NCBI GenBank assembly: GCA_030710605.1
Contig: CP092884.1
Coordinates: 19,635,483-19,699,482 of the forward strand
Direction: 5' to 3'
DNA: 64,000 nt
From: Cordylochernes scorpioides
Taxonomy: Eukaryota > Arthropoda > Arachnida > Pseudoscorpiones > Chernetidae
Position numbers and translations under genes: made by a program. Of this stretch, positions 1 to 57,009 are shown piece by piece (the first letter of the stretch is position 1; the number at the start of each line of letters is the position of its first letter). The notes below the pieces were generated by a model. It was given only the letters and a program-made list of their open reading frames with translations. It did no database searches and had not been told where the DNA came from.

Positions 1-5
1 ATAAC

Positions 6-72
6 AGCGGTATGGTAGATTAAACTGGCGAAACCGCTGGGAGGGTTCACCACTGATGAGCCAGGCCCTCCC
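6..72 (+). ncRNA. Hammerhead-type ribozyme with permuted, pseudoknotted strand order (copy 1)
   Basis: All conserved hammerhead core bases are present. CTGATGA lies at 53-59, GAA at 30-32, the A15.1-U16.1 pair is A33 with T11, the G10.1-C11.1 pair is G60 with C29, and H17 is A12, so the predicted cut is after 12. Stem III is 6-11 with 33-38 (6 bp). Stem I is 13-16 with 49-52 (4 bp). Stem II is 25-29 with 60-64 (5 bp). A seventh-base stem, 39-45 with 66-72 (7 bp), closes the strand that carries CTGATGA. The linear order (III3', I3', II3', III5', I5', II5') is not a circular permutation of the normal hammerhead. The enzyme strand sits in a downstream hairpin loop and would dock into the upstream hairpin loop. 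Activity is untested. Confidence 0.65.
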
Positions 73-376
73 TTTAATTTTTCCATCGCAGTAAGGACAG
101 TAGAAATTGTTTTATTTTAAAAAGAATATTACGCCTCTAAAATAGTTTTATAATTTAATAACAGATGGCGCTCTAGTACATCATAACATTATTGTTCTAA
201 TAAAAGACACAATTTGATATTTGCGGAAGAGCGATTGCTCGAAGCATATTATATATTTATAAATATATTTAATTCTGCTGTCCTAAAAGCTTATGTCCAT
301 AGTTATTCTAAAATACCCATTCCAAGAGTCTTACAACAGTCACCTATAAAAGGAAGTTCCAAAAATGCAATATAAC

Positions 377-443
377 AGCGGTATGGTAGATTAAACTGGC
401 GAAACCGCTGGGAGGGTTCACCACTGATGAGCCAGGCCCTTCC
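377..443 (+). ncRNA. Hammerhead-type ribozyme with permuted strand order (copy 2)
   Basis: Repeats copy 1 exactly 371 bases later. Every core base and all three canonical stems are unchanged. The only difference is C to T at 441, which turns one G-C pair of the extra closing stem into G-U. Predicted cleavage would fall after 383, so cuts in both copies would release a 371-nt RNA. Confidence 0.65.
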
Positions 444-576
444 TTTAATTTTTCCATCGCAGTAAGGACAGTAGAAATTGTTTTATTTTAAAAAGAATAT
501 TACGCCTCTAAAATAGTTTTATAATTTAATAACAGATGGCGCTCTAGTACATCATAACATTATTGTTCTAATAAAA

Positions 577-1219
577 AATTCAAGTTTATTATATTTTTGT
601 GTGCTTTTAAAGGTCCTCCTCATCCACCATGTAGACCAGTAAGAACTCTTCTGTCTCCATCTTTCGCTCCTAGCTCAACTTTTATCTGTTCACGGAACTC
701 AGAATGTTCCGGAAATGAGTTAGGCAAGTGTCATTAAAAAGGTCAGATGCACGACCTGTTGCAACATTTTCTGGGTGTTTTTTACCACGAACTGTGAAAC
801 TCTCTCCCACATTCCTAAGATCTCCTTTATCTCACTTGTAGAAATAACCTTCTCCTCTGACTCCTCAAAACCAATTACTTGCATAACCTCAGTATGCTGC
901 TGTGACTGTAACTCTTGTATCTCTTCATTCGTCAGTTCCTGGGTGTGCTCCTCGATGAGCTCGTTCACGTCTCTCTCTTCACGTTTTGATTCAATACTCA
1001 TAATCTTTTTCTTAGCACTTGACTTTTTACAAACTTTCTTCCGATCCATGGTTATAAAAATAAATGACGAAATGAAATAAACAACACAAAACGCGAATAC
1101 AAAACACAACTTATCACAGCGGAAGCACGCTGCTAACTGATCGTGATGGCGCGACTGCGTGTTACTACCTGTTGTGTTTTAACTTTAAAAGCACACAAAA
1201 ATATAATAAACTTGAATTT
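577..1219 (-). mobile_element. Internally deleted Tigger/pogo-like element
   Basis: About 37 bp at 577-613 and 1183-1219 are inverted copies of each other (both carry TTTTTGTGTGCTTTT or its complement), which gives terminal inverted repeats. Inside, the minus strand retains the C-terminus of a Tigger-type transposase. At about 640 bp it is far shorter than an autonomous element and has lost the DDE core, so it would depend on a transposase supplied in trans. It interrupts the second 371-bp repeat unit. Confidence 0.75.
720..1049 (-). pseudogene. Tigger/pogo transposase, C-terminal remnant
   Basis: An open frame of about 110 codons from the ATG at 1049. It begins with a short basic stretch (KKVCKKSSAKKK) and continues into acidic and Q-rich sequence (LTNEEIQELQSQQHTEVM). 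It then has the TSEIKEILGMWERVSQFV segment, which matches the tail of TIGD1-like transposases in general pattern. The helix-turn-helix and the catalytic DDE region are absent. Similar bases recur at 63124-63215. It is probably a deletion derivative rather than a domesticated gene, because it lies between TIRs. Confidence 0.7.
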
Positions 1220-9530: not shown

Positions 9531-9810
9531 ATATATAGTCACGACCGTCTGTCGTGGCCTCTGTCACGGATAATATACAGTTATCATCGTCATGCGTTCT
9601 TAATTCTGTCACCGTTTGCTTTTGATTCAGTGGTAGAATGCTCGCCTGCCACGCGGGCGCCCCGGGTTCGATTCCCGGCCGATGCATTTTTTTTTTTACA
9701 ATTTTTAAAACTCATTTATATATTATACAAGAATGACATCCACGGCGCCAATTTATAATTGTAACGAATAGTATTTGAATAAAAGCATTTAATCGGGTAA
9801 ACCCCGGGCG
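9531..9810 (+). mobile_element. HINE-like unit with tRNA-Gly-like insert (copy A)
   Basis: Starts with TATAGTCACGACCGTCTGTC. A tRNA-Gly(GCC)-like block follows at about 9615-9686, with the intact anticodon-arm and T-arm words CTCGCCTGCCACGCGGGCG and GGTTCGATTCCCGG. Then come a T-run and the shared tail GACATCCACGGCGCCAATTT ... AATCGGGTAAACCCCGGGCG. The 5' acceptor strand of the tRNA is replaced by unrelated bases, so no functional tRNA is expected. The tail is cut off at GGGCGTTG by the 57-bp array. Confidence 0.7.
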
Positions 9811-10098
9811 TTGTAGATTATAAACACAAGGTAATAAGACCACATCCATGATAAGGTACAATTTGGATTATAGATTATAAACACAAGGAAATAAGACAAC
9901 ATCCATGATGAGGTACAGTTTGGATTATAGATTATAAACACAAGGTAATAAGACCACATCCATGATAAGACACAATTTGAATTATAGATTATAAACACAA
10001 GGTAACAAGACCACATCCATAATAAGGTACAATTTGGATTATAGATTATAAACACAAGGTAACAAGACCACATCCATGATAAGGTACAGTTTGGATTA
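9811..10098. repeat. 57-bp tandem repeat, five copies
   Basis: Five units of TATAGATTATAAACACAAGG plus 37 more bases, about 90-95 percent alike. Because 57 is a multiple of 3, the minus strand stays open as a 19-residue repeated peptide, but there is no sign that it is a gene. The array is wedged between two HINE-like copies. Confidence 0.9.
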
Positions 10099-10102
10099 TT
10101 AC

Positions 10103-10298
10103 TATATATAGTCACGACCGTCTTTCCTCATCGGCCGCCTCTGTCACGGATAATATACAGTTGTCATCGTCATGCGTTCTTAATTCTGTCACCGTTTGCT
10201 TTTGGTTCAGTGGTAGAATGCTCGCCTGCCACGCGGGCGCCCCGGGTTCGATTCCCGGCCGATGCATTTTTTTTTTTACAATTTTTAAAACTCTTTAT
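10103..10298 (+). mobile_element. HINE-like unit with tRNA-Gly-like insert (copy B)
   Basis: Same layout as copy A, with the tRNA-Gly-like block at about 10195-10266 followed by a T-run. It is cut short inside TTTTTAAAACTC by the mariner fragment that begins near 10299. Confidence 0.7.
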
Positions 10299-10610
10299 AC
10301 AGGGTGTACCAGGTAAATTGGGAATTTCAACAATGGTATTTTAACTGAAATTTTTTGCAAGTAAAAATTAAAATATCCGAATGAAATTTGACACAGTAGT
10401 AGATAAAAGGATATAGTTTTTATTTATTCAATGTAGTTTCCATTATTAGCTACAACAGTCTCGAGGCGAGTGCGGAATGAAGCACAGGCCTTGGCGACGA
10501 TGACCTTGTCCATTTGGGTCATCACCGTGTGAACTGCTTTCTTGACAGACTGGATGGTGGTATGAGGAGCTTTGTTGACATCTCTCTCAACAACGCCCCA
10601 TACATATTAT
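10299..10610 (-). pseudogene. Tc1/mariner-type transposase, C-terminal remnant
   Basis: On the minus strand, a frame ending at about 10437 reads AVHTVMTQMDKVIVAKACAS then FRTRLETVVANNGNYIE and stop. This is the usual C-terminus of IS630/Tc1/mariner transposases (CKAFRRRLE-C-A-GGYIE). The 3' terminus ACAGGGTGTACCAGGTAAAT is at the left. The catalytic domain is absent. Confidence 0.7.
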
Positions 10611-10611
10611 A

Positions 10612-11023
10612 CTAGCCGAATGACCCGGGCAACGCCCGGGGTTTACCCGATTAAATGCTTTTATTCAAATACTATTCGTTACAATTATAAATTGGCGCCG
10701 TGGATGTCATTCTTGTATAATATATAAATGAGTTTTAAAAATTGTAAAAAAAAAAATGCATCGGCCGGGAATCGAACCCGGGGCGCCCGCGTGGCAGGCG
10801 AGCATTCTACCACTGAACCAAAAGCAAACGGTGACAGAATTAAGAACGCATGACGATGATAACTGTATATTATCCATGACAGAGGCCACGACAGACGGTC
10901 GTGACTATATATATTAACAAGAATGACATCCACGGCGCCAATTTATAATTGTAACGAATAGTATTTGAATAAAAGCATTTAATCGGGTAAACCCCGGGCG
11001 TTGCCCGGGTCATTCGGCTAGTA
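10612..11023. mobile_element. HINE-like unit with two inverted tails and a tRNA-Gly-like insert (copy C)
   Basis: About 105 bp at each end are near-perfect inverted copies: ACTAGCCGAATGACCCGGGC at the left is the complement of the right end at 11023. Each terminus contains the palindromic CCCGGGCAACGCCCGGG. A tRNA-Gly(GCC)-like block lies on the minus strand at about 10757-10828, followed (in its sense) by CACGACAGACGGTCGTGAC, a second hairpin. Functionally it looks like a minus-strand unit with an extra tail added head-to-head. Confidence 0.75.
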
Positions 11024-24858: not shown

Positions 24859-25594
24859 TATATATATAGTGTAAAAACTATATAATAAAAATATAACAGT
24901 GATTCTACATTTAAAGCTTAATGAGCAAAATGATAAGAATGATAAATCATATCAAGTAGATTTGGTTAGATTAGCAAGCTAAATCTAAATTAGTTATAAA
25001 AATAAATAGTTGTATAGTTTTATAGTTAAGTATTTTATTAAAATTATCTTCATTATTTTGATTATTTAATTTCAAATTATAAAATTTGTAAAATGTTATT
25101 ATTTAGTATAGATAGAGAGAAAAAAAAATTCTTTACTTCTAAACATCATCTAGTTAATTATATATTTATAATTAATAACAATAAAATTTAACAACGTAAC
25201 GTCTTTTGTATCGGCTTTTACACGTCATTTAGACATACTCTAATCCTATATATAGAATAATAGAAGTGAGAATATATATGATAGTTAGAAAAAAGAGAGA
25301 AAGACAGAACCATGCACTTTTAATCAAACTAATAATAAGAAAACAAAAAGTTTTGTAAAGAAGGTAGATAAGGTTGTTAGTATATATATATATATTTTTA
25401 TAATTTTATATTTTATCCTTTTTTTTTTTTAAATGATTTTTTAAATTTTTTTATTTTAAAATATGAATATAAATAGTTGTATTTAGTAATATATCTATAT
25501 TATTAATTAACTTTTGTTATAAGTTTGGTTATTATGTTTTGAAACCCTAATGGTAGACCAGACATATACAAAAAAAAATTAAAATTGGAGTAAT

Positions 25595-25700
25595 TATTGA
25601 AAAAAGAGATCTGCTGAACCGGGAATTCTCAAATAGAAATTCAGCGGCGTTTCATCCCTTCTCTATTACGTCATAGATCTCTTTTCAACCGGATTTTATG
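25595..25700. other. Structured hairpin in the Naiad 3' region (left arm); same at 32865-32970
   Basis: AAAAGAGATCT and AGATCTCTTTT form an 11-bp stem about 75 bases apart. Inside are nested CTGAA/TTCAG and GAATT/AATTC pairings. The right arm carries the complement, so both copies kept it. I looked for hammerhead core motifs and found none in full. Confidence 0.5.
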
Positions 25701-25837
25701 TGTTAATATAAAGTTAATTCAGTGAAACATTTATATGAACAGATATAACAAATTCCATTAACAAGTTCCAACCGTGACCTACCTTGCCCGCGGCGTCTTC
25801 AACTGTAAACATCTATTTCTGGATGACACATGTTGTG

Positions 25838-25854
25838 GGGGGGGGGGGGTGGGG
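25838..25854. repeat. Poly-G tract
   Basis: A run of 10-11 G, then TGGGGG. The mirror in the right arm (about 32700-32716) is shorter. Confidence 0.8.
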
Positions 25855-26268
25855 GACTAAATTAGACCGTTTGTTTTGAAGTTTTAGAACAAAAAGATAT
25901 TCAAAGAAGAGAGAAAAGTTAGTTAATGAAAGAATACCAAACTTTATAATCTTTACAGCTAGTTATATTAAAATAACTGATTCAACACTTATTCATCTTT
26001 CAATATTCCTTTAAAAAGGCAAATTATTAGAGTTTAATAAAGCTATTGAATGTGAAAATTCACTTTTATTTAATTTCCATTTTCCTCCCCAGAAATTGGA
26101 GATTAAAAAAAAATGAATTCTATACAATATTACTTTAAACATCTTGTGAAAAAATCTTCAAATCAGCTATTTAATTTAAGTTTAACTAATTGTTAAAGAA
26201 TATAAATTTGTATTATTTATTATTGAGAGAAATTATAGAAAGTTGATTTAATAAATGGATATTTCCAT

Positions 26269-26554
26269 TTATTTTTTTAAAAAGTATTTTATAATAGATA
26301 TACTGTTGAAATATTTTACTTGTCTGATACTAAATTTGTTTTTAATAAATTCCATGTTTAAATTTTTAACATCTTCTATGAAATTTTCTAATATATTATT
26401 TATTCTATAAAATCTTAGAAACTGTCCAAAGTATATACCTTTACAACAATTTAATGATATATTAGAATTCATATTACAGTATTTTATAATATTGAAATTA
26501 TAATTACTTTTTTTATTATAAATTTTAATAGCATTGTTTGTAAGGTCTATATTT
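26269..26554 (-). pseudogene. Naiad RT C-terminal part, left arm, separated by the R1 insertion
   Basis: Minus-strand frame from DLTNNAIKIYNKKSNYNFN to NSISIIKYFLKK and stop. It matches the last 100 residues of the right-arm protein almost residue for residue. It was split from its upstream part at TATATTT (26548-26554), the R1 target site. Confidence 0.9.
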
Positions 26555-28575
26555 CTTCCGAGGAGGAACTCCACAAAGCAACTAGATATTACTCGCCAAT
26601 CTACAATAATAGAAACAAAGTGATCATAAGCCTAACAGATATCGAAACAATTATTGTATCATTGAAAAATAAGAAAGCACCCGGATCAGATAATATTAGC
26701 AATAATATGATTAAATACGCCTACCCTAGGATTTCCATAATCCTCCATCAAATATTTGAAAAATGTATAAGTTTGGGATATTTCCCAGATTATTGGAAAA
26801 ACTCTTTTGTGAAAATCATTCCTAAAGGAGATAAAACTAGTTATGATGTTAGTAAAAGTTACAGACCAATTTCCTTACTATCTAACATTTCAAAAATTTT
26901 CGAACACGTAATTAAAAATAAACTTACTACCTTTTATGACGAAAACAATTTGATGAGTCATAGACAACATGGCTTCTCCAGGCATAAATCAACTATTACT
27001 GCTATGAAAGAGCTGACTGAAACTATTCTGGAACACAAGCAAAGAGAACTGACGGCGTTGATCGCAGTGGACTTATCAGGGGCTTTTGATAATGCATGGT
27101 GGCCAGCTATAATAAAAAGAATGGATTTAGACAACGTTCCCAGCTCTCTGATTCAAATCATCCAATCCTATTTGAATAACAAAAGGACAGTCTGTCTGTC
27201 TTACGGTGGCAAAACGATCTCCAAAAACCTTACTAAGGGATGTCCTCAGGGTAGTCCACTTTCACCGTTATTATGGAACATCTTGCTAAACGACATTTTA
27301 ATGAATTTTAAATCTACAAAAGCTGAAATTATTTGCTACGCGGACGACATCTCTATTGTATGTTGGCATTATAATTTAGAGGGTCTAAAAACTGAGTTAG
27401 TGAACACCCTAAACTATGTCACTCAATGGTGCCGCTCAAACAAGTTAAAAATAAATCCAGAAAAAACAAACTTGATTCACTTCCACAATTTCCATAGGTT
27501 CCAGCTGGAATTTCAAAAAACCGTCATAAAGCCTTCAAATGAAATCAAAATTTTGGGAATGAAATTATCTAACCATAGGTTCAAAACAAAAATAAATTTT
27601 ACCCCGCACATCAATGAGATTTTGCATAAGGCGCAGCGCATGAAAAATCTGCTTTTTTCCCTCAGCGGCAAAATATGGGGTATAAATTCTAATAAAAGGT
27701 TAATTCTGTATAAGACGCTAATTAGACCTATTCTAACATATGGAGCTGAAATTTGGTTTTACCAAATAAATAACCGCTCTAAACAGAAATTAAATTCGAT
27801 GCAATACCAAATTGTTCTTTGGGCTACTAGATCGTTTAAAACATCTTCCTCAAATTGTGTCCACTGTCTGGCAGAGATCCCATTCCTGACTGACTTTATC
27901 GAATCAAGATTGATTAAATATGAATTGGACCAACTAAGCGAGGAAGACCAACGAACGTTCAGTCCACATTCTCCTTCAATTATAAAAGGATTTTTGAGAA
28001 CAAGAATGGAAGATATGTTTTCTAATACAAATGATCACTTTCGTCTCTTTTTCCCTCTGGGCATTCCAAAATATTTCCGCCCTGACTTTTACAATGTGCA
28101 ATTCGTTACTGGTCATGGGAATTTCGGAGATTTTCTGTTTCGAATAGGAGCTATAGACGATCCGGGATGTTTATGTGGAAAGAGAAAGCAGGATTCCAGT
28201 CATCTGCTCCTTGAGTGCCCAATCTTCCAGAACTACAGAAACCGGGAAAACATCGAATACAAGGATCTTTTTATGTTTGTAAATAGTAAGGACTCGTATT
28301 TTAAATTTAGAAAATTCTGTAAATATATCTATGATTTTCTCTCTTGGTTAAAAAAACCTTAATTATTACATATTTGTATATATGTATTTTTTGGTTTGTT
28401 TATTTTGTTGGTTGTGATGTAAAATCAAGAATGATTTAATGTCCTCTTTTTTATCTTTTAAATCTTGTAATTATTTTTTTTTTTTTGATGTAATATAGTA
28501 TCTGAATTTAGTGTTGTTATTGACGCAAGCATCCCTTGTGGGGATGTCGCGTCTGATTTGATGGATAAATAAATA
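26555..28575 (+). mobile_element. R1-clade LINE, 5'-truncated, with 7-bp target duplication
   Basis: TATATTT occurs on both sides (26548-26554 and 28576-28582). The right arm of the palindrome shows the uninterrupted empty site. The element is 2021 bp and keeps RT and the 3' region but not the APE endonuclease. Its 3' end has a hairpin (GCATCCCTTGTGGGGATG) and an AAATAAATATA tail. It inserted in the opposite orientation to the left Naiad copy. Confidence 0.92.
26620..28362 (+). CDS. R1-type reverse transcriptase (ORF2 C-terminal part)
   Basis: 580 uninterrupted codons. RT starts within KKAPGSDNISNNMIKYAYP, then YRPISLLSNISKIFEHVI, VDLSGAFDNAWWPAI (about 157), GCPQGSPLSPLLWNILLND (about 208) and the catalytic CYADDISIV (about 240). 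FDN-WWPA and CPQGSPLSP are typical of the R1 group. A C-terminal Cys-His finger, CLCGKRKQDSSHLLLEC, sits near 535. The N-terminal APE nuclease and ORF1 are missing, so it cannot move on its own. The intact frame suggests a recent insertion. Confidence 0.9.
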   Translation: MIISLTDIETIIVSLKNKKAPGSDNISNNMIKYAYPRISIILHQIFEKCISLGYFPDYWKNSFVKIIPKGDKTSYDVSKSYRPISLLSNISKIFEHVIKNKLTTFYDENNLMSHRQHGFSRHKSTITAMKELTETILEHKQRELTALIAVDLSGAFDNAWWPAIIKRMDLDNVPSSLIQIIQSYLNNKRTVCLSYGGKTISKNLTKGCPQGSPLSPLLWNILLNDILMNFKSTKAEIICYADDISIVCWHYNLEGLKTELVNTLNYVTQWCRSNKLKINPEKTNLIHFHNFHRFQLEFQKTVIKPSNEIKILGMKLSNHRFKTKINFTPHINEILHKAQRMKNLLFSLSGKIWGINSNKRLILYKTLIRPILTYGAEIWFYQINNRSKQKLNSMQYQIVLWATRSFKTSSSNCVHCLAEIPFLTDFIESRLIKYELDQLSEEDQRTFSPHSPSIIKGFLRTRMEDMFSNTNDHFRLFFPLGIPKYFRPDFYNVQFVTGHGNFGDFLFRIGAIDDPGCLCGKRKQDSSHLLLECPIFQNYRNRENIEYKDLFMFVNSKDSYFKFRKFCKYIYDFLSWLKKP

Positions 28576-28582
28576 TATATTT

Positions 28583-29868
28583 AGGTCTAAAAAGTTAACT
28601 TTTTTGTTTCTATAAATTTTTTCATTGTTCTTAAGTTTCAAGTATTTAGGATAAATTTTAGGTATTAAGTTTTTGAACTGTGGATTATTAAATATTATAA
28701 TGTCATCTACATAACGGAACATTTGCCAGTTAACATTATTTTGTAGAAAGTATTCTCTTTCGTACCAGAATAATATTAAATTTGCTAATAAAGGACTAGA
28801 AGATGTTCCCATGGGAACGCCTTCTGATTGAATATATATTTTATTTTTAAATTCTATATAGTTAAAATTTAAAAATGTTTCCAGTAGGGTTTTTGCTGTT
28901 TTAAGATCTAATTTAATTGTTTTATATCTGTTATGAATAATTTTAATGTGGAAAGTTTTGTCATTGATGATTTCGTTAAATAAATTGGTTATTTTATTAT
29001 TTAGATCTCTTAAATTTATTTTAGAATATAGGTCCTCAAAGTCAAATGTGTGTACTGTTTCAATGTTTGTCCAATTGTTCATTAAATAGTTAATGATTTT
29101 TTTATTTGAGTCGATAAATTTATAATTATATATATTAGTTAATTTATTTATAATAAATTGTAGTGTTGAAGCTAATTGTATATCAATGTTTTTTATAACT
29201 GAATTTATACCAGATGTGATTGTTCTGAAAGAAATAGGTTTTTGTGTAGTTTAGGAATTATATAGAACTTTGGTATGTTTGGATTTTTGTAGTGATTATA
29301 AATTTTTAGTGAATTTTCAACGTTTTTGATGTCTTTTTTGATTTTTGTGGCTGTAGTTCTAGCAAAAGTGTATTTATGATTATTATCAATTTCCTTTTTT
29401 AGTATATCGTGGTATAGATTTTTACAAATTATAGATAAGTTATTGGAACATTTATCTATAGGAGTGATAATAAAGTCCTTCTGTAATTTAATTATATTTT
29501 CTTTAAAAGAAGGAATATCTGAATTAGGTTTTGTGTATTTAAGTGTATTATTATAATAATTTATAATTTCCTTTTTAATATTATGTTTCCATTCCAGAAA
29601 AGTAAATTCTGGAATACTGTATTTTATACTAGTTTTATTTATGAAAATATCTATATCTTTTAATATAGATTTAATTGTATTATTATAATTGTGTTTAATT
29701 TGAGGTATATATTTATACCCTTTATTTAAAATATCCTGATATTCTGGATTTAAAAAAGAAAAATTGCTAGTTAATATATGACCTGAGAACTTATATCTAT
29801 CAATATAGTTGTTGCAATTACATTTAATTTTTTTAAAATTTGCTAAATTATCAATAAATTGGTTATAA
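28583..29868 (-). pseudogene. Naiad reverse transcriptase, left copy, N-terminal and central part
   Basis: The minus strand repeats the right copy from the conserved CNCNN...GHILTS region (about 29800) through MNNWTNIETVHTFDFEDLYS, EGVPMGTSSSPLLANLI and FRYVDDIIIFN. It is then cut by the R1 LINE at 28582; beyond the site the frame runs into LINE sequence. It lacks the GIY-YIG domain and is truncated at about 29868. A probable frameshift near 29230 separates the upstream part from the 203-codon open frame ending at 29082. Confidence 0.88.
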
Positions 29869-29915
29869 GAATTGCCTAAGAAAGAATTGTCAAACTTGTC
29901 CCTCTCTTAAGAACC

Positions 29916-30349
29916 ATGACACATTTCAAACGACTAGTTGTAAATTAGTAAATACTATTTATAAATTAACATGCCAAATTTGTCAATTATCATATATAGG
30001 ACAAACGTGTAATCCATTAAATATACGAATAAACCTACATAGAAACCACGCTAAAAAATCAATTGGTAATATATATATGAAAGAACACAATCAATTACAT
30101 ACTTTTAACAACTTTAAGATAGAAATACTAGACATATGTCAAAACAAAAAACAACGACTATTATTAGAAAACAACTACATTTATAAACACAACACATTAT
30201 TCCCCTATGGTCTTAATGACGAATTAAACTACACATACAAACCACAAACAGAAGAAATTTCAACTTATGAAATCAGCTGCAAATACAAAAAAAAAATGAA
30301 TTTAAAACTAAACCTAATAAAACTAGAGGTAAAACTACCAATAAATTAG
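29916..30349 (+). CDS. Naiad GIY-YIG endonuclease domain (right copy)
   Basis: Open frame reading NHDTFQTTSCKLVNTIYKLT, CQICQLSYIGQTCNPLNIRI and NLHRNHAKKS. IYKL and SYIG are the GIY and YIG strands, R of NIRINLHR is the catalytic arginine region, and LLLENNYIYKH supplies the Glu. The CQIC cysteine pair and the HR-NH histidines fit the zinc-finger-like CCHH insert of the Naiad group. It lies 5' of RT. The frame shifts near 30349 into the following linker frame. Confidence 0.8.
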
Positions 30350-30762
30350 GTTACATTGAATTTGAAGAATTACTGGACCCAAAACAAATGTATACTAACA
30401 ACTTCGTCGATAAATTTATTAAAACATTATTTAAACTAAATAATAATAAATTTATCAAACTCATAGAATATATTAAAATTCATAATCTGACTAACAGATT
30501 AATAGATATCACACACGACATCTTTAAATACAGAAAAATTAAACAATCTACTAATAACATTAATATTATCATTAAATTTAATAACAATTTATTTAATCAT
30601 ATTAAGTTTAATGATATTTTTAATAACCAAAACATTAATAATCTTTTCCCTATAAAAAATTTAAATTTCAAAACAATCTGGAGATACAACAAAAATATAG
30701 GTAATTTAGTTTGCAATTATAACCAATTTATTGATAATTTAGCAAATTTAAAAAAAAATTAA
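30350..30762 (+). CDS. Naiad linker region between endonuclease and RT
   Basis: An open frame continuing from TKLGYIEFEELLDPKQMYTN through NLFPIKNLNFKTIWRYNKNI to NLANLKKN. Asn/Lys/Ile-rich because of AT bias. It ends in an A8 run at about 30752-30760, after which the RT frame begins, so a homopolymer slip probably separates them. Confidence 0.65.
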
Positions 30763-30765
30763 ATG

Positions 30766-32290
30766 TAATTGCAACAACTATATTGATAGATATAAGTTCT
30801 CAGGTCATATATTAACTAGCAATTTTTCTTTTTTAAATCCAGAATATCAGGATATTTTAAATAAAGGGTATAAATATATACCTCAAATTAAACACAATTA
30901 TAATAATACAATTAAATCTATATTAAAAGATATAGATATTTTCATAAATAAAACTAGTATAAAATACAGTATTCCAGAATTTACTTTTCTGGAATGGAAA
31001 CATAATATTAAAAAGGAAATTATAAATTATTATAATAATACACTTAAATACACAAAACCTAATTCAGATATTCCTTCTTTTAAAGAAAATATAATTAAAT
31101 TACAGAAGGACTTTATTATCACTCCTATAGATAAATGTTCCAATAACTTATCTATAATTTGTAAAAATCTATACCACGATATACTAAAAAAGGAAATTGA
31201 TAATAATTATAAATACACTTTTGCTAGAACTACAGCCACAAAAATCAAAAAAGACATCAAAAACGTTGAAAATTCACTAAAAATTTATAATCACTACAAA
31301 AATCCAAACATACCAAAGTTCTATATAATTCCTAAACTACACAAAAAACCTATTTCTTTCAGAACAATCACATCTGGTATAAATTCAGTTATAAAAAACA
31401 TTGATATACAATTAGCTTCAACACTACAATTTATTATAAATAAATTAACTAATAAATATAATTATAAATTTATCGACTCAAATAAAAAAATCATTAACTA
31501 TTTAATGAACAATTGGACAAACATTGAAACAGTACACACATTTGACTTTGAGGACCTATATTCTAAAATAAATTTAAGAGATCTAAATAATAAAATAACC
31601 AATTTATTTAACGAAATCATCAATGACAAAACTTTCCACATTAAAATTATTCATAACAGATATAAAACAATTAAATTAGATCTTAAAACAGCAAAAACCC
31701 TACTGGAAACATTTTTAAATTTTAACTATATAGAATTTAAAAATAAAATATATATTCAATCAGAAGGCGTTCCCATGGGAACATCTTCTAGTCCTTTATT
31801 AGCAAATTTAATATTATTCTGGTACGAAAGAGAATACTTTCTACAAAATAATGTTAACTGGCAAATGTTCCGTTATGTAGATGACATTATAATATTTAAT
31901 AATCCACAGTTCAAAAACTTAATACCTAAAATTTATCCTAAATACTTGAAACTTAAGAACAATGAAAAAATTTATAGAAACAAAAAAGTTAACTTTTTAG
32001 ACCTAAATATAGACCTTACAAACAATGCTATTAAAATTTATAATAAAAAAAGTAATTATAATTTCAATATTATAAAATACTGTAATATGAATTCTAATAT
32101 ATCATTAAATTGTTGTAAAGGTATATACTTTGGACAGTTTCTAAGATTTTATAGAATAAATAATATATTAGAAAATTTCATAGAAGATGTTAAAAATTTA
32201 AACATGGAATTTATTAAAAACAAATTTAGTATCAGACAAGTAAAATATTTCAACAGTATATCTATTATAAAATACTTAAAAAAAAAATAA
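30766..32290 (+). CDS. Naiad reverse transcriptase (right copy)
   Basis: Open for about 508 codons; no ATG until 31505, consistent with being the interior of a larger protein. It starts KCNCNNYIDRYKFSGHILTS, the conserved Cys/GHxxT motif before RT in this group. It then has FARTTATKIKKDIKNVENS, PKFYIIPKLHKKPISFRTI, TFDFEDLYSKI (first catalytic Asp), GVPMGTSSSPLLANLILFWY, and the catalytic FRYVDDIIIF. The thumb and C-terminus run to IKYLKKK and stop. No defect is visible in RT itself. It is followed by a 1.2-kb 3' region shared with the left arm. Confidence 0.88.
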
Positions 32291-33589
32291 ATGGAAATAT
32301 CCATTTATTAAATCAACTTTCTATAATTTCTCTCAATAATAAATAATACAAATTTATATTCTTTAACAATTAGTTAAACTTAAATTAAATAGCTGATTTG
32401 AAGATTTTTTCACAAGATGTTTAAAGTAATATTGTATAGAATTCATTTTTTTTAATCTCCAATTTCTGGGGAGGAAAATGGAAATTAAATAAAAGTGAAT
32501 TTTCACATTTAATAGCTTTATTAAACTCTAATAATTTGCCTTTTTAAAGGAATATTGAAAGATGAATAAGTGTTGAATCAGTTATTTTAATATAACTAGC
32601 TGTAAAGATTATAAAGTTTGGTATTCTTCCATTAACTAACTTTTCTCTCTTCTTTGAATATCTTTTTGTTCTAAAACTTCAAAACAAACGGTCTAATTTA
32701 GTCCCCCACCCCCCCCACAACATGTGTCATCCAGAAATAGATGTTTACAGTTGAAGACGCCGCGGGCAAGGTAGGTCACGGTTGGAACTTGTTAATGGAA
32801 TTTGTTATATCTGTTCATATAAATGTTTCACTGAATTAACTTTATATTAACACATAAAATCCGGTTGAAAAGAGATCTATGACGTAATAGAGAAGGGATG
32901 AAACGCCGCTGAATTTCTATTTGAGAATTCCCGGTTCAGCAGATCTCTTTTTTCAATAATTACTCCAATTTTATTTTTTTTTGTATATGTCTGGTCTACC
33001 ATTAGGGTTTCAAAACATAATAACCAAACTTATAACAAAAGTTAATTAATAATATAGATATATTACTAAATACAACTATTTATATTCATATTTTAAAATA
33101 AAAAAATTTAAAAAATCATTTAAAAAAAAAGGATAAAATATAAAATTATAAAAATATATATATATATACTAACAACCTTATCTACCTTCTTTACAAAACC
33201 TTTTGTTTTCTTATTATTAGTTTGATTAAAAGTGCATGGTTCTGTCTTTCTCTCTTTTTTCTAACTATCATATATATTCTCACTTCTATTATTCTATATA
33301 TAGGATTAGAGTATGTCTAAATGACATGTAAAAGCCGATACAAAAGACGTTACGTTGTTAAATTTTATTGTTATTAATTATAAATATATAATTAACTAGA
33401 TGATGTTTAGAAGTAAGGAATTTTTTTTTCTCTCTATCTATACTAAATAATAACATTTTACAAATTTTATAATTTGAAATTAAATAATCAAAATAATGAA
33501 GATAATTTTAATAAAATACTTAACTATAAAACTATACAACTATTTATTTTTATATATATATATATATATATATGAAAACACAATAGAAA

Positions 33590-33912: not shown

Positions 33913-34208
33913 ATATATATATGAAAAAACAATAGAAAAAAATAATAAGTGGGTCAGGTGTTGATATTAAAAATAAAGAAAGCATATGCTGACCACGAGC
34001 ACATATGCTTTTTAGATGACAGAGCGCCATCTAGTGGAGCAAAAATAAAAAAAAAACGTTTATTTAACTTGTTTGTGATATGCTTGCTCCACTAGATGGC
34101 GCTCTGCCATCTAAAAAGCACATGTGCTCGTGGTCAGGATACGCTTTCTCTATTTTTAATATCAACACCTGACCCACTTATTATTTTTTTCTATTGTTTT
34201 TTCATGTG
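33913..34208. repeat. Fold-back repeat 2
   Basis: Second palindrome. Arms share GTGGGTCAGGTGTTGATATT, GCATATGCTGACC-type sequence and TGGCAGAGCGCCATCTAGTG. It is closely related to fold-back 1 but has a shorter centre. Confidence 0.85.
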
Positions 34209-34515
34209 TTAAGCGTATTAACGCAAATTTGGCCTTAAATACCCATTTCTTGGTTTCTAAAGAAGCCTCTGGGACCAAAAATCTTTTTGGTCGCAGTGGT
34301 ACAGCCTACTCCACGCTGACGAGTTCCAACAGCGCGAAACGCGTTCGTGGATGGCTTTTCTTGATTTATCAAGAAATTGGGTTGGCCAAATATCACGGAG
34401 CAAGTAAATAAACGTTTAGTTTATTTTTGATCCACTAGATGGCGCTCTGCCATCTAAAAAGGCACATGTGCTCGTGGTCAGGATATGCTTTCTTTATTTT
34501 ATATATATATTTTTA
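34209..34515 (+). repeat. Full-length-looking member of the hammerhead-bearing family
   Basis: Contains the hammerhead at 34309-34352, then TGGCTTTTCTTGATTTATCA, GGGTTGGCCAAATATCA, CCACTAGATGGCGCTCTGCC and GTGGTCAGGATATGC. It appears to supply the arm sequence from which the two fold-backs were built. It ends at (TA)n near 34500. Confidence 0.75.
34309..34352 (+). ncRNA. Hammerhead ribozyme with weakened stem II
   Basis: CTGACGA at 34316-34322 and GAA at 34336-34338. Stem I is CTCCACG with CGTGGA (34310-34315/34346-34351, 6 bp). The tiny stem III is ACGCGT (34339-34344), and H17 is T at 34345. Stem II (34323-34335) closes with G-C but has mismatches inside. This is the canonical order with a minimal stem III, as in Penelope-like and retrozyme hammerheads. 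Activity is doubtful because of stem II. Confidence 0.65.
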
Positions 34516-52030: not shown

Positions 52031-52101
52031 CCATCGGTGTTTCAGTGGTAGAATGCTCGCCTGCCACGCGGGCGGCCCGGGTTCGATTCCCGGCCGATGC
52101 A
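52031..52101 (+). tRNA. tRNA-Gly(GCC)-like gene in a HINE-like unit (first copy)
   Basis: 71 nt with cloverleaf potential: D-arm region, anticodon arm CTCGCCTGCCACGCGGG with GCC, T-arm GGTTCGATTCC, discriminator A, then T11. The first acceptor pair is C-C instead of G-C, and the A box has one extra change (GTGTTTCAG for GTGGTTCAG). It is probably a pseudogene riding in the mobile unit, whose tail at 52141-52242 follows. Confidence 0.55.
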
Positions 52102-52312
52102 TTTTTTTTTTTTACAATTTTTAAAACTCATTTATATATAATACAAGAATGACATCCACGGCGCCAATTTATAATTGTAACGAATAGTATTTGAATAAAA
52201 GCATTTAATCGGGTAAAACCCGGGCGTTGCCCGGGTCATTCGTATCTACTTATATATTTGCCTTATTCTGTCTGTTTGTTTGTCTGAAGCTCACGGATGG
52301 GAATTTTCATTA

Positions 52313-52383
52313 CCATCGGTGGTTCAGTGGTAGAATGCTCGCCTGCCACGCGGGCGGCCCGGGTTCGATTCCCGGCCGATGCA
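52313..52383 (+). tRNA. tRNA-Gly(GCC), nearly intact, in a HINE-like unit (second copy)
   Basis: Every stem pairs except the first acceptor pair (C1-C). GTGGTTCAGTGGTAGAATG supplies the A box, GCC is the anticodon, GGTTCGATTCC is a perfect B box, and a T-run terminator follows. It could be transcribed by Pol III. The same tail module follows at 52433-52510. Direct repetition with 52031 (282 bp apart, including flanks TATATATTTGCCTTATTCTG) shows a tandem duplication of the whole unit. Confidence 0.65.
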
Positions 52384-52539
52384 TTTTTTTTTTTTTACAA
52401 TTTTTAAAACTCATTTATATATTATACAATAATGACATCCACGGCGCCAATTTATAATTGTAACGAATAGTATTTGAATAAAAGCATTTAATCGGGTAAA
52501 ACCCGGGTTTTACTAATAATTGTATAAACGAATGCAAGA

Positions 52540-53095
52540 CAAAATCACCGCGAATGTTTCTTTTTTTTTTAAGGCAATTTCTTTTTAAGGCAATTATCGT
52601 TATTTATCGTTAATTTTTGTTTCGATTTTATTGAAAAAAAAACGATATGGTGCCTTTAAAAAATGATCTTTATTACTATGCAGTTTTCTATTCAGTCAAT
52701 ATACCTAAGTTCATGTTGCAAATGTAATTATCTCTATCGATTTAAAACGAAAATTAAAATTATACCGCGAATGTTTCTTTTAAAAATCGAAATTTATTTT
52801 CAAAGAGAAATAGCGATATTTCTAACTTTGAGGATGAGGTATGGAAAGGTGAAACATGAAAAGTAATGGAGAACGGAAAAATAAAAAGTGTCCAGGGGCG
52901 GGAATCGAACCCACACCCTTCTGCTTACCGGGCAGGTGCCTTGTCCACTCGGCTACCCTGGACGTATTTTTCCGTTCATAACTTATATTTAAAGTAACAT
53001 TTAAAATACAATATAACGCGGCTGATGATTGTAAAACGAAAATTTCGATTTTTAAAAGAAACATTCGCGGTATAATTTTAATTTTTGTTTTACAA
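52540..53095. mobile_element. Inverted-repeat element around a tRNA-Thr-like sequence
   Basis: CGAAAATTAAAATTATACCG CGAATG at about 52748 is mirrored near 53090. Between them is the tRNA-like block at 52891-52962. Poly-A/T runs lie on both outer sides. It repeats the design of the tRNA-Gly units with different termini. Confidence 0.55.
52891..52962 (-). tRNA. tRNA-Thr(GGT)-like sequence
   Basis: 72 nt on the minus strand. A 7-bp acceptor stem TCCAGGG/CCCTGGA closes perfectly. The T-arm has GGTTCGATTCC, and the A box region is TAGCCGAGTGGACAAGG. The anticodon arm is CTGC-CCGGTAA-GCAG, giving GGT, but position 33 is C instead of T. It is likely a pseudogene or SINE head. Confidence 0.5.
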
Positions 53096-53615: not shown

Positions 53616-53670
53616 ATATTTATGAATAAACGTATCATTAAATGGAAGATAGGTATCTTTTATTTGTAAA

Positions 53671-53706
53671 CGTTACGAGCTTTCGGGCAAACGCCCTTCT
53701 ACAGGT
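53671..53706 (-). ncRNA. Degenerate hammerhead-like hairpin at the Penelope-like 3' end (mirror copy at 56921-56955)
   Basis: The sense strand reads CTGTAGA, A, GGGC-GTTT-GCCC, GAAAG. Stem II is intact, but CTGTAGA replaces CTGANGA (A6 is T) and stem III is not formed properly. Both arms share the defect, so it predates the inverted pairing or is a family feature. Confidence 0.5.
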
Positions 53707-53877
53707 TTGACAGAAATTAAGGCGAGAGACCGACCTATATACAAGGGATGATTTACATAATAAACAATTTTTATAACTTAGCAGTAATAATTTTTAATTT
53801 TTAATAAGTAAATATTGTATTGATATGGTAATAAGATGTTGTATACTAGATTTTTAACTATGTAAAAAAGGAATAGA

Positions 53878-55439
53878 TTAACTTGAAACAAAAATATCAT
53901 AAATTTCAGGAATTTCTATTTTTCTATTTATGCTTTTAAGTTTGGTGGATACTATGGATTCTAACATTAATCTTTGGTGTAGGTTGGGTATGTTACGGTA
54001 ATGGATAGTGGGGTGGTTGGTATTAAAAGAGTGGCCAGTGGATGCAACATGCTGATAGATGAGGGAACGTGGGTCGTTGTTATTAATGTTGTGGGTGTGT
54101 TCTGACATTCTAATGGCGACGGTTCTACCTGTCTCACCCACATAAGTGGCGGAACAATGTTCGCATGAGACAGAGTAGACCGCCCCAGAAGAATCCAGAG
54201 GACTGAGTTGGGTACCAGTTTTTGTAATGGGGTGTCGGAGAAGTGAGTGGATACTGGGGGTATTAATGAAAAAGGTGCGAATGCCAAATGGCCTGATGAG
54301 ACGGGAGATACTAACTGTTAAGGGAGAATAGGGCAACATGCAGGTAGTCCTGAAGACTGGGGGAGGATTGGAGGGAGCGGGAGAATAGGTATGTTTATTA
54401 ATGAATGTTAGTGGATAGGAGGCGGCGGTGAGATGGGAGATGATACGGGCTTTTTCTGTGGTTTTAAAGATGGGTAGAGAGCAGTGTGTGTGAAGGCGCC
54501 TGGTGAGTGTTTTAACGATGTTAATTTTGTGTACTATGGGGCAGAAGGAGTTGAAATGGGTGTAGGTGGGGGTACTGCTATTCTTGTAGTATACTGTGGT
54601 GTGGAAAGATGCCGGGGTACGTATGATTAAGATGTCTAGGAAGGGAATGATGTGTCCCTATTCTTTTTCCATGGTGAACGAGAGGTTAGGGTTGTAGCTG
54701 TTGAGGGTGGACAGGATGGTTTCTTCAAGGTCGGTTTTACATATGCAAAGGATATCATCTACATATCGTCGCCAGAAAAGAATGTCATCACAATGGAGGT
54801 TGCAGACCCATTTATCTATTCTGGTCATAACCAGCTCAGCAGCTATGGAGGAGAGGGGGCTTCCCATAGGCGATCCCCTTATCTGTTTGAAATGGATATG
54901 GTCAAAGGGAAAGGTGCTCATGTTTAAGCATATCTGTGAGAGAGATGTGATAGAGTTGGTCTTGACGGGATCTGTGTTAATGGAAACCAAAAATTGGTTG
55001 AGGCTGTCAATTATCAGGTGATGGGGGAGACTGAGGTATAGGGATGAAACGTCAAATGAACACATGGTGAAGTTTTGGGGGGGGGGTGTAGGCCGGTTAT
55101 TTCTTGAATGAGTGTGGGGGTGCTGGAAACTGTGAGATTACTTCTATTGTTGTTTAAAAGAGGTGAGAGATAATTTGAGAGGTACTTAGCTAGGGGGTAG
55201 GCGGGAGAGAGGTGATACGCAATGATAGGGCGCAGAGGGACAGAAGGTTTGTGGACCTTGGGAAGGCCGTAGATGTAGGTACCATTGGGGAGATTAGTGG
55301 TAAAGGATTTGTGTTCCTCCGTTGAGATGAGACTGGATCTTTTCATTCGGTTGAGAGAGGACTTGAAGGTTTTTAGTGCTATTGTGCTCTCTTGTGCGGA
55401 AATTTGAGAAAAAGTGGCTGTGTCCTGCAATATTTCCAA
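53878..55439 (-). pseudogene. Penelope-like RT and GIY-YIG protein, left copy
   Basis: The minus strand starts near 55439 with the RT finger region (NGTYIYGLPKVHKPSVPLRP). It shifts frame at the G10 run near 55077-55086, then continues MCSFDVSSLYLSLPHHLIID, IRGSPMGSPLSSIAAELVM and the catalytic WRRYVDDILCI. A stop in place of Q at about 54659 breaks it (TAG after EKE). The last frame holds AVYSVSCEHCSATYVGETGR (GIY-YIG). The N-terminus is missing. Confidence 0.9.
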
Positions 55440-55560
55440 TATTTTGGCGTGGTACGAAGATCGCCTCTTTTAAACAACAATAGAAGTAATCTCACAGTTT
55501 CCAGCACCCCCACACTCATTCAAGAAATAACCGGCCTACACCCCCCCCCAAAACTTCACC

Positions 55561-56748
55561 ATGTGTTCATTTGACGTTTCATCCCTATACCTCAGTCTCC
55601 CCCATCACCTGATAATTGACAGCCTCAACCAATTTTTGGTTTCCATTAACACAGATCCCGTCAAGACCAACTCTATCACATCTCTCTCACAGATATGCTT
55701 AAACATGAGCACCTTTACCTTTGACCATATCCATTTCAAACAGATAAGGGGATCGCCTATGGGAAGCCCCCTCTCCTCCATAGCTGCTGAGCTGGTTATG
55801 ACCAGAATAGATAAATGGGTCTGCAACCTCCATTGTGATGACATTCTTTTCTGGCGACGATATGTCGATGATATCCTTTGCATATGTAAAACCGACCTTG
55901 AAGAAACCATCCTGTCCACCCTCAACAGCTACAACCCTAACCTCTCGTTCACCATGGAAAAAGAACAGGGACACATCATTCCCTTCCTAGACATCTTAAT
56001 CATACGTACCCCGGCATCATTCCACACCACAGTATACTACAAGAATAGCAGTACCCCCACCTACACCCATTTCAACTCCTTCTGCCCCATAGTACACAAA
56101 ATTAACATCGTTAAAACACTCACCAGGCGCCTTCACACACACTGCTCTCTACCCATCTTTAAAACCACAGAAAAAGCCCGTATCATCTCCTATCTCACCG
56201 CCGCCTCCTATCCACTAACATTCATTAATAAACATACCTATTCTCCCGCTCCCTCCAATCCTCCCCCAGTCTTCAGGACTACCTGCATGTTGCCCTATTC
56301 TCCCTTAACAGTTAGTATCTCCCGTCTCATCAGGCCATTTGGCATTCGCACCTTTTTCATTAATACCCCCAGTATCCACTCACTTCTCCGACACCCCATT
56401 ACAAAAACTGGTACCCAACTCAGTCCTCTGGATTCTTCTGGGGCGGTCTACTCTGTCTCATGCGAACATTGTTCCGCCACTTATGTGGGTGAGACAGGTA
56501 GAACCGTCGCCATTAGAATGTCAGAACACACCCGCAACATTAATAACAACGACCCACGTTCCCTCATCTATCAGCATGTTGCATCCACTGGCCACTCTTT
56601 TAATACCAACCACCCCACTATCCATTACCGTAACATACCCAACCTACACCAAAGATTAATGTTAGAATCCATAGTATCCACCAAACTTAAAAGCATAAAT
56701 AGAAAAATAGAAATTCCTGAAATTTATGATATTTTTGTTTCAAGTTAA
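55561..56748 (+). CDS. Penelope-like RT (partial) and GIY-YIG endonuclease, right copy
   Basis: 395 uninterrupted codons: SFDVSSLYLSLP (first Asp), IRGSPMGSPLSSIAAEL (about 62), catalytic WRRYVDDILCI (about 99) and the thumb GHIIPFLDILIIRT. A linker follows, and then the endonuclease AVYSVSCEHCSATYVGETGR (about 300) with R and H in TVAIRMSEHT and E in LMLESIVSTKLKS. Upstream RT sequence from 55465 is in another frame because of the C9 run at 55541-55549. The protein is therefore 5'-incomplete. It is better preserved than the left copy. Confidence 0.92.
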   Translation: MCSFDVSSLYLSLPHHLIIDSLNQFLVSINTDPVKTNSITSLSQICLNMSTFTFDHIHFKQIRGSPMGSPLSSIAAELVMTRIDKWVCNLHCDDILFWRRYVDDILCICKTDLEETILSTLNSYNPNLSFTMEKEQGHIIPFLDILIIRTPASFHTTVYYKNSSTPTYTHFNSFCPIVHKINIVKTLTRRLHTHCSLPIFKTTEKARIISYLTAASYPLTFINKHTYSPAPSNPPPVFRTTCMLPYSPLTVSISRLIRPFGIRTFFINTPSIHSLLRHPITKTGTQLSPLDSSGAVYSVSCEHCSATYVGETGRTVAIRMSEHTRNINNNDPRSLIYQHVASTGHSFNTNHPTIHYRNIPNLHQRLMLESIVSTKLKSINRKIEIPEIYDIFVSS

Positions 56749-57009
56749 TCTATTCCTTTTTTACATAGTTAAAAATCTAGTATACAACATCTTATTACCA
56801 TATCAATACAATAGTTACTTATTAAAAATTAAAAATTCTTACTGCTAAGTTATAAAAATTGTTTATTATGTAAATCATCCCTTGAATATAGGTCGGTCTC
56901 TCGCCTTAATTTCTGTCAAACCTGTAGAAGGGCGTTTGCCCGAAAGCTCGTAACGTTTACAAATAAAAGATACCTATCTTCCATTTAATGATACGTTTAT
57001 TCATAAGTT

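Follow-up and report, generated by a model that had tools for sequence, protein, structure and literature searches.

We analyzed a 64-kb window of the genome of the pseudoscorpion Cordylochernes scorpioides (Pseudoscorpiones; C22:19635483-19699482, in a genome of 2.62 Gb and 24 contigs), here called the window throughout, and conclude that its positions 5-71 very probably represent a type-SGC hammerhead ribozyme, a copy of which is carried within each 371-nt unit of a non-coding, retrozyme-like retroelement. This reading rests on the presence of all core bases, the four stems, the covariation between subfamilies of the element and the dispersal of its copies with target-site duplications. An earlier note on this DNA had proposed a hammerhead with an unusual strand order at this place; the mobile-element context, that is, the 371-bp unit, was absent from it.

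The hammerhead motif and its strand order

Reading of the sequence at positions 5-71 revealed a complete conserved hammerhead core, consisting of CUGANGA, GAAA, the U16.1-A15.1 pair and H17. Both the sequence and a descriptor scan placed the blocks of the motif in the order S, G, C (Table 1, in which the numbering of the unit equals that of the window for the first ribozyme copy). The hammerhead assignment of the earlier note, with all core bases and its list of stems, was borne out, as was its placement of the predicted cut after position 12. The lengths given for two of the helices (6 bp for stem III and 7 bp for the extra hairpin) hold if G39 is assigned to the bridging stem, whereas stem III has 7 bp and the bridge 6 bp if the C5-G39 pair is counted; G39 can serve either stem. 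The linker between stems I and II, described as 7 nt, is 8 nt long.

Table 1. Coordinates of the putative type-SGC ribozyme, the repeat unit and the insertion that carries them.
Feature	Position	Strand	Description and basis
Full 371-bp unit	1-371	+	Right (+) half of a head-to-head array, the start of which lies left of the window; direct repeat at a spacing of 371; array mapped in locus L129
Block S	5-16	+	III3' CAGCGGT 5-11, A12 (H17), I3' TGGT 13-16; predicted cut 12/13; sequence and descriptor match
Linker I3'-II3', 8 nt	17-24	+	Sequence; can have 73-80 as its partner in an alternative fold that is inactive (minimum free energy fold of 1-90 and of the circular unit)
Block G	25-39	+	II3' CTGGC 25-29, GAA 30-32, III5' ACCGCTG 33-39; sequence and descriptor match
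Bridge between stems I and II, 5' strand	40-45	+	GGAGGG; G40-C71 or A40-T71
TTC between the bridge 5' strand and I5'	46-48	+	Sequence
Block C	49-64	+	I5' ACCA 49-52, CTGATGA 53-59, II5' GCCAG 60-64; sequence and descriptor; pair 25-64 is C-G or T-A genome-wide
G65, then 3' strand of the bridge	66-71	+	CCCTCC; sequence
Tail segment between the two insertion-end classes	159-188	+	Holds AGATGGCGCTCT at 163-174
Second type-SGC ribozyme copy	376-442	+	Structure repeats; one bridge pair changed from G-C to G-T
Second unit, 3'-truncated, right end of the insertion	372-577	+	97% identical over 218 nt; the direct repeat defines its end
Target-site duplication, right copy, 11 bp (ATTCAAGTTTA)	578-588	.	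L129 3061-3071; left copy at L129 1905, outside the window

When both strands of the 64 kb were scanned in all six block orders, just two places matched, namely 5-71 and its repeat 371 bp further on, and the same two were obtained with minimum stems of 4/4/5 or 3/3/4. The frequency of such matches by chance was estimated from 2.04e9 strand-bases of random sequence with the dinucleotide content of the window. Under a strict criterion (at least 4, 5 and 6 bp in stems I, II and III, respectively, Watson-Crick pairs only), the random DNA contained no match in the SGC order and one in any order. The looser criterion (4/4/5, at most one G-T pair per stem) yielded 10 matches in the SGC order, so that 0.0006 would be expected in one window; for all orders together the expectation is 0.0037. 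The search of Rfam returned no hammerhead match at E ≤ 10 for window positions 1-700, and in the rest of the window no type I hammerhead was found by the search rule used. A canonical hammerhead spanning neighbouring units was rejected by reasoning rather than computation, since its strands would have to come from three units in a row, with loops hundreds of bases long; the local fold was preferred.

The strand order is not a circular permutation of the classical types, as the earlier note had stated, and corresponds to the non-circular permutation named type SGC. The suggestion that this topology belongs to no described class was therefore wrong: cleavage assays and compensatory mutants have been published (Eckert, Friedrich, Weinberg and Weinberg 2023, PMC10085705). 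According to the available sections of that report, type SGC comprises 583 sequences (the HRIMA-1 motif and variants) from environmental RNA. In vitro cleavage was seen for five of the ribozymes but not for a sixth, the cleavage site of which was damaged; the rates were 0.007-0.19 per minute. For one ribozyme, all four stems were disrupted and rescued, the helix between stems I and II among them. The motif described here resembles the type SGC of these sections in its S-G-C order, conserved core, stems I-III and helix joining the far ends of I and II, and also in having few or no nucleotides between stem III and the joining helix (published range 0-44 nt). It differs in the length of the I3'-II3' linker, which is 8 nt as compared to 3 nt typically, a length that is not required and so not defining. 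It also differs in its setting, which is chromosomal, in a mobile tandem 371-bp unit of very high copy number; the same sections report no type SGC in the genome of any known organism.

Structure and dispersal of the 371-bp unit

A genome search with window positions 1-600 produced 1690 first-look candidates, 40 of which were scored; the 143 matches listed from these were grouped by eye into 40 places. These 40 loci are the best matches and are thus biased to the youngest copies. The listed matches were spread over 19 of the 24 contigs, as read from the list. Arrays with minus units to the left and plus units to the right, here called head-to-head, were observed at 30 of the 40 loci and the opposite order at none, while 10 loci had units in a single orientation. 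The insertions contained approximately 1.7-12.1 units, which are lower bounds where the edge of the stretch cuts the array. Window positions 1-577 represent the right half of one head-to-head insertion (locus L129, in which a position minus 2483 gives the window position). It appears to have entered the end of an inverted-repeat element at window positions 590-1218 (AATTCAAG...CTTGAATT).

The ends of the insertions fall into two classes approximately 30 bp apart. One end at unit positions 150-170 and the other at 178-220 were found in 28 of the 30 head-to-head loci, and the other two had one end outside both zones. Both ends fell in the same zone at none of the 30 head-to-head loci and at one of the 10 with a single orientation. 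Direct repeats were analyzed for 38 loci, with the two that reach the edge of the fetched stretch excluded. Flanking repeats of at least 8 bp were present at 33 of the 38, and 18 had repeats of 12-13 bp, whereas only 3.3% of mismatched flank pairs reached 8 bp. The sequence of the unit tail includes AGATGGCGC, and the AGATGGCGCTCT of this segment has further copies in the window, at 34094-34105 and at 34437-34448 as well as from 33672 and 34021 on the opposite strand.

The 40 loci contained 196 near-complete ribozyme copies, 132 of which were identical over unit positions 1-79. The G+C content of the unit is 33.7%, and the longest stop-to-stop frame touching it has only 62 codons, for which reason the unit was taken to be non-coding. 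Metazoan retrozymes without long terminal repeats are described by Cervera and de la Pena (2020, PMC7229834), in the sections available, as carriers of type I hammerheads, with Penelope elements proposed as their movers. The element studied here resembles them in its tandem repeats of a few hundred base pairs (roughly 150-450 bp), with one hammerhead each, in its low G+C content, and in its multiple copies, dispersed over the genome with target duplications of more than 4 bp. It differs in that type SGC takes the place of type I. Linear and circular RNA monomers, a further mark of that class, are predicted for it.

The genome-wide number of copies was estimated from three patterns. The pattern GAAA-N12-TT-N5-CTGATGA had 105,975 exact matches, as compared to 98 for the reversed control pattern. 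A 35-nt core stretch had 33,891 exact matches, and a bridge-to-bridge pattern with four two-letter positions had 54,592; the controls of both gave 0. All three patterns exclude the S block, so the counts refer to half-motifs and not to proven ribozymes.

Subfamilies, covariation and alternative explanations

Sequence variation was studied in 60 of the first 100 places that matched GAAA...CTGATGA. The sample comprised the 53 places with a 30-mer unlike the commonest one and seven of the 45 with the commonest, as counted from the list, and left out the other 38 of the latter as well as two unrelated-looking places. Subfamily A is characterized by CTGGC/GCCAG, GGAGGG/CCCTCC and TGGT/ACCA, and subfamily B by TTGGC/GCCAA, GGAGGG/CCCTCC and TGGT/ACCA. 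Subfamily C has TTGGC/GCCAA, AGAGGG/CCCTCT and TAG/ACTA, with one base missing, and a fourth group consists of copies that lack the S block. The S block was considered to be kept if at least 8 of 10 positions matched the consensus, which was the case for 37 of the 60 copies, 27 of them distinct. For the pair counts, the S block was shifted by one in subfamily C, the missing base of which had been left ungapped by the automatic alignment.

Two local groups of copies were also seen. Three C-type copies lie at a spacing of 122 bp, one third of the usual unit, at C1:3060824-3061099, and a dense cluster of B-type copies with 85-95% identity to the query extends over approximately 0.1-13.4 Mb of C23, apparently by local amplification. 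Furthermore, 11 of the 60 sampled copies (L189, L191, L193, L196-L199, L202, L204, L205 and L207) carry GAAACTGCTGGGAGG together with CTGATGA and no S block.

In the 27 distinct copies, standard pairs occupied 86.5% of the cells, as compared to 31-57% when the partners were slid by 1-3 positions. Double changes were found in 24 cells, as compared to 0-7 in the slid versions and a mean of 11 in the shuffled ones, none of which reached 24 in 500 trials. In stem II, the pair 25-64 was T-A in 32 of all 60 copies, C-G in 26 and other in two. Genome-wide counts of exact 40-mers gave 13,344 with C-G and 16,950 with T-A, but only 333 with C.A and 356 with T.G, so that the pair was matched in 30,294 of 30,983 exact copies. 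The bridge pair 40-71 was G-C in 36 of the 60 copies, A-T in 14, G-T in five, A-C in three and other in two, and the first 100 of the 54,592 bridge-to-bridge matches, counted by eye, had G-C in 67, A-T in 28, A.C in three and G.T in two. The stem I pair 14-51 was G-C in 5/8 A copies and 14/15 B copies, whereas 11/14 C copies had A-T. The consensus sequences of A and C differ by seven substitutions at paired positions, six of which form these three compensated pairs. In a simple simulation, with the one deleted position omitted, the probability of obtaining at least three compensated pairs from seven random changes in 44 paired positions was 1.5e-4. The covariation proposed in the earlier note as a check was accordingly found within this genome in stems I and II and in the bridge, and the change at 40-71 supports the extra stem that the note had drawn between the ends of I and II.

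An older B family was represented by the query L157 and 20 further stretches, which were aligned, and by B2, the consensus of seven of them. The consensus sequences of A and B2 agreed at 64/68 positions of the ribozyme, as compared to 23/48 and 36/61 in the flanks and 32/38 and 42/50 in other segments. None of the other segments compared was as well conserved as the ribozyme.

Several results weigh against the preferred reading. The S block was not recognizable in 23 of the 60 sampled copies, which implies that dead copies or half-motifs make up a considerable part of the 105,975 places. Among these 23 are the 11 copies with GAAACTGCTGGGAGG, which have one or two mismatches in stem II; this group may be dead or may serve another function. 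The rule by which S blocks were accepted, likeness to the consensus, biases stems I and III towards pairing. When pairs with a double change are counted, the result of six is close to the shuffle mean of 5.86 (300 of 500 shuffles reached six) and equals that obtained with partners slid by +1. The covariation signal is confined to three pairs that are inherited within subfamilies, so that few independent events are involved, and variation in stem III is largely uncompensated. TTAGC or TTAGT in stem II creates a C.A mismatch in 15 of the 21 B sequences, and many B sequences have a weakened bridge; we tentatively read these as dead copies that were amplified locally, C23 holding many of them. The nested minimum free energy structures of 1-90 and of the circular unit lack the active fold. 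Finally, no partner Penelope element was identified.

The copies without a recognizable S block would be expected if the motif were a relic, or a chance likeness to a hammerhead, that is passively copied. We consider this improbable, given that the random-sequence estimate argues against an accident, that three stems are compensated between high-copy subfamilies as quantified by the simulation, and that the ribozyme is conserved better than the other segments between A and B2. Less likely again is a structure of two kissing-loop hairpins that is under selection for reverse transcriptase binding or packaging rather than for self-cleavage. Stem III and the bridge suffice to form two neighbouring hairpins, and the Penelope-like protein studied by Frangieh et al. 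(2024, PMC11167929) did not, in the sections available, need hammerhead activity for insertion in vitro. However, binding or packaging gives the unpaired core no reason to be exactly that of a hammerhead; position 12 was C in 18, A in eight, T in one and G in none of the 27 distinct copies, and the same arrangement cleaves in other sequences according to the available part of PMC10085705. Ordinary satellite DNA spread by unequal exchange, which the tandem arrangement of the 371-bp units might suggest, is very unlikely and already contradicted by the listed matches on 19/24 contigs, which occur as short insertions flanked by repeats, with ends of two classes.

Proposed life cycle, neighbouring sequences and significance

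The preferred reading, a retrozyme-like element with a type-SGC ribozyme, suggests a life cycle for the unit. We infer from the sequence that its RNA would be cleaved, circularized and mobilized in trans. In a tandem transcript, stem III and the bridging stem would form two side-by-side hairpins, the loops of which would kiss via stems I and II, and cutting is predicted between A12 and U13. The resulting 371-nt monomers, with 5'-OH and 2',3'-cyclic phosphate ends, would be closed into circles. A Penelope-type reverse transcriptase would then prime at nicked target DNA on both strands and copy the circles round and round, and this copying from two strands would yield the head-to-head tandem arrays. 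In the nested folding of 3-73, stem III and the bridge are already neighbouring hairpins, at -28.4 kcal/mol. Holding both hairpins and leaving the strands of I and II unpaired gives -21.3 kcal/mol, to which duplex I adds -2.5 and duplex II -6.8, the cost of the pseudoknot not being counted. When more 3' flank is included, positions 73-80 take up the linker 17-24 as their partner, and the minimum free energy structure shows a misfolded ribozyme; this misfold could protect circles from being cut.

The two end classes and the head-to-head form fit well, by analogy, with the two-site, two-strand insertion of Penelope-like elements. The available sections of PMC11167929 describe a Penelope-like protein that cuts and extends both target strands, with reverse transcription starting at two adjacent internal sites that bound a "tail" of 30-40 bp. 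The insertion ends observed here likewise lie at two adjacent internal positions, and their spacing agrees with that range. The unit differs from the elements in these sections in that it has no reverse transcriptase gene and its ribozyme is not their minimal type I form. We regard it as probable that a whole animal retroelement lineage runs its life cycle on a pseudoknotted type-SGC hammerhead at very high copy number, in place of the type I ribozyme of Penelope-mobilized retrozymes, with the two reverse transcription start sites used once each, one per target strand; this would be the first genomic home of type SGC in a known organism.

Further retroelement sequences were observed in the window. 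Two large palindromic stretches with inverted arms, at 24995-33554 and 53620-57006, match reverse transcriptase and GIY-YIG domains and are apparently Penelope-like, although the GIY-YIG match of the second falls below the Pfam cut-off. None of the Penelope-like genes in the window was linked to the 371-bp unit. The sequence AGATGGTGC was considered as the tail of the Penelope element at 53.6-57 kb and dropped, as a similar stretch occurs at 11.5 kb. Inspection by eye revealed a minimal Penelope-type hammerhead (CTGACGA ... GAAACGCGT) at 34300-34365, the stem II of which is weak; it scores 19.7 bits with the Rfam model HH9, for which the gathering threshold is 52. Approximately 90 nt downstream of it lies AGATGGCGCTCTGCCATCT, which shares a 12-mer (the copy at 34437) with the tail of the type-SGC unit. 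A retroelement polyprotein is also encoded in the window. Its domains are RVT_1, RNase H and integrase, and it matches proteins of C. scorpioides, one of them at 95% identity across 79% of the query. Six tRNA-like sequences at 9618-10825 and 52031-52962, at least partly within repeated families, are possibly tRNA-derived short interspersed elements.

Two patterns derived from the element had no matches in viral contigs, and no matches were found in prokaryote genome contigs. A loose core pattern selected at least 120 stretches in viral contigs, which with minimum stems of 3/3/4 were mostly of the GSC order; among the matches listed there were also four SCG, one CGS, five GCS and one SGC. This lone SGC match (L047) shares its G and C blocks with a GSC match among those listed. 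Several hammerhead candidates of the type II order (GSC) per contig were seen at IMG/VR loci such as L017, L025 and L077, the last of which has eight.

Searches of the open-access literature (subscription papers, preprints and supplements aside) showed no report of type SGC in an animal genome. The ribozyme class is already known; what is new is its home in an animal mobile element, a metazoan retrozyme with type SGC instead of type I. Type SGC was reported in 2023 without organism or biology, and the chromosome-level C. scorpioides genome supplies both a host and natural mutants by the thousand, in several subfamilies. It also offers a clear likely role as judged from the sequence, which would be to release RNAs of unit length from tandem transcripts for retrotransposition. 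What appear to be the two start sites of Penelope reverse transcription are recorded in the head-to-head insertions. If the reading is true, the strand order of the hammerhead can be swapped within an animal mobile element, which bears on the origin of non-circular permutations.
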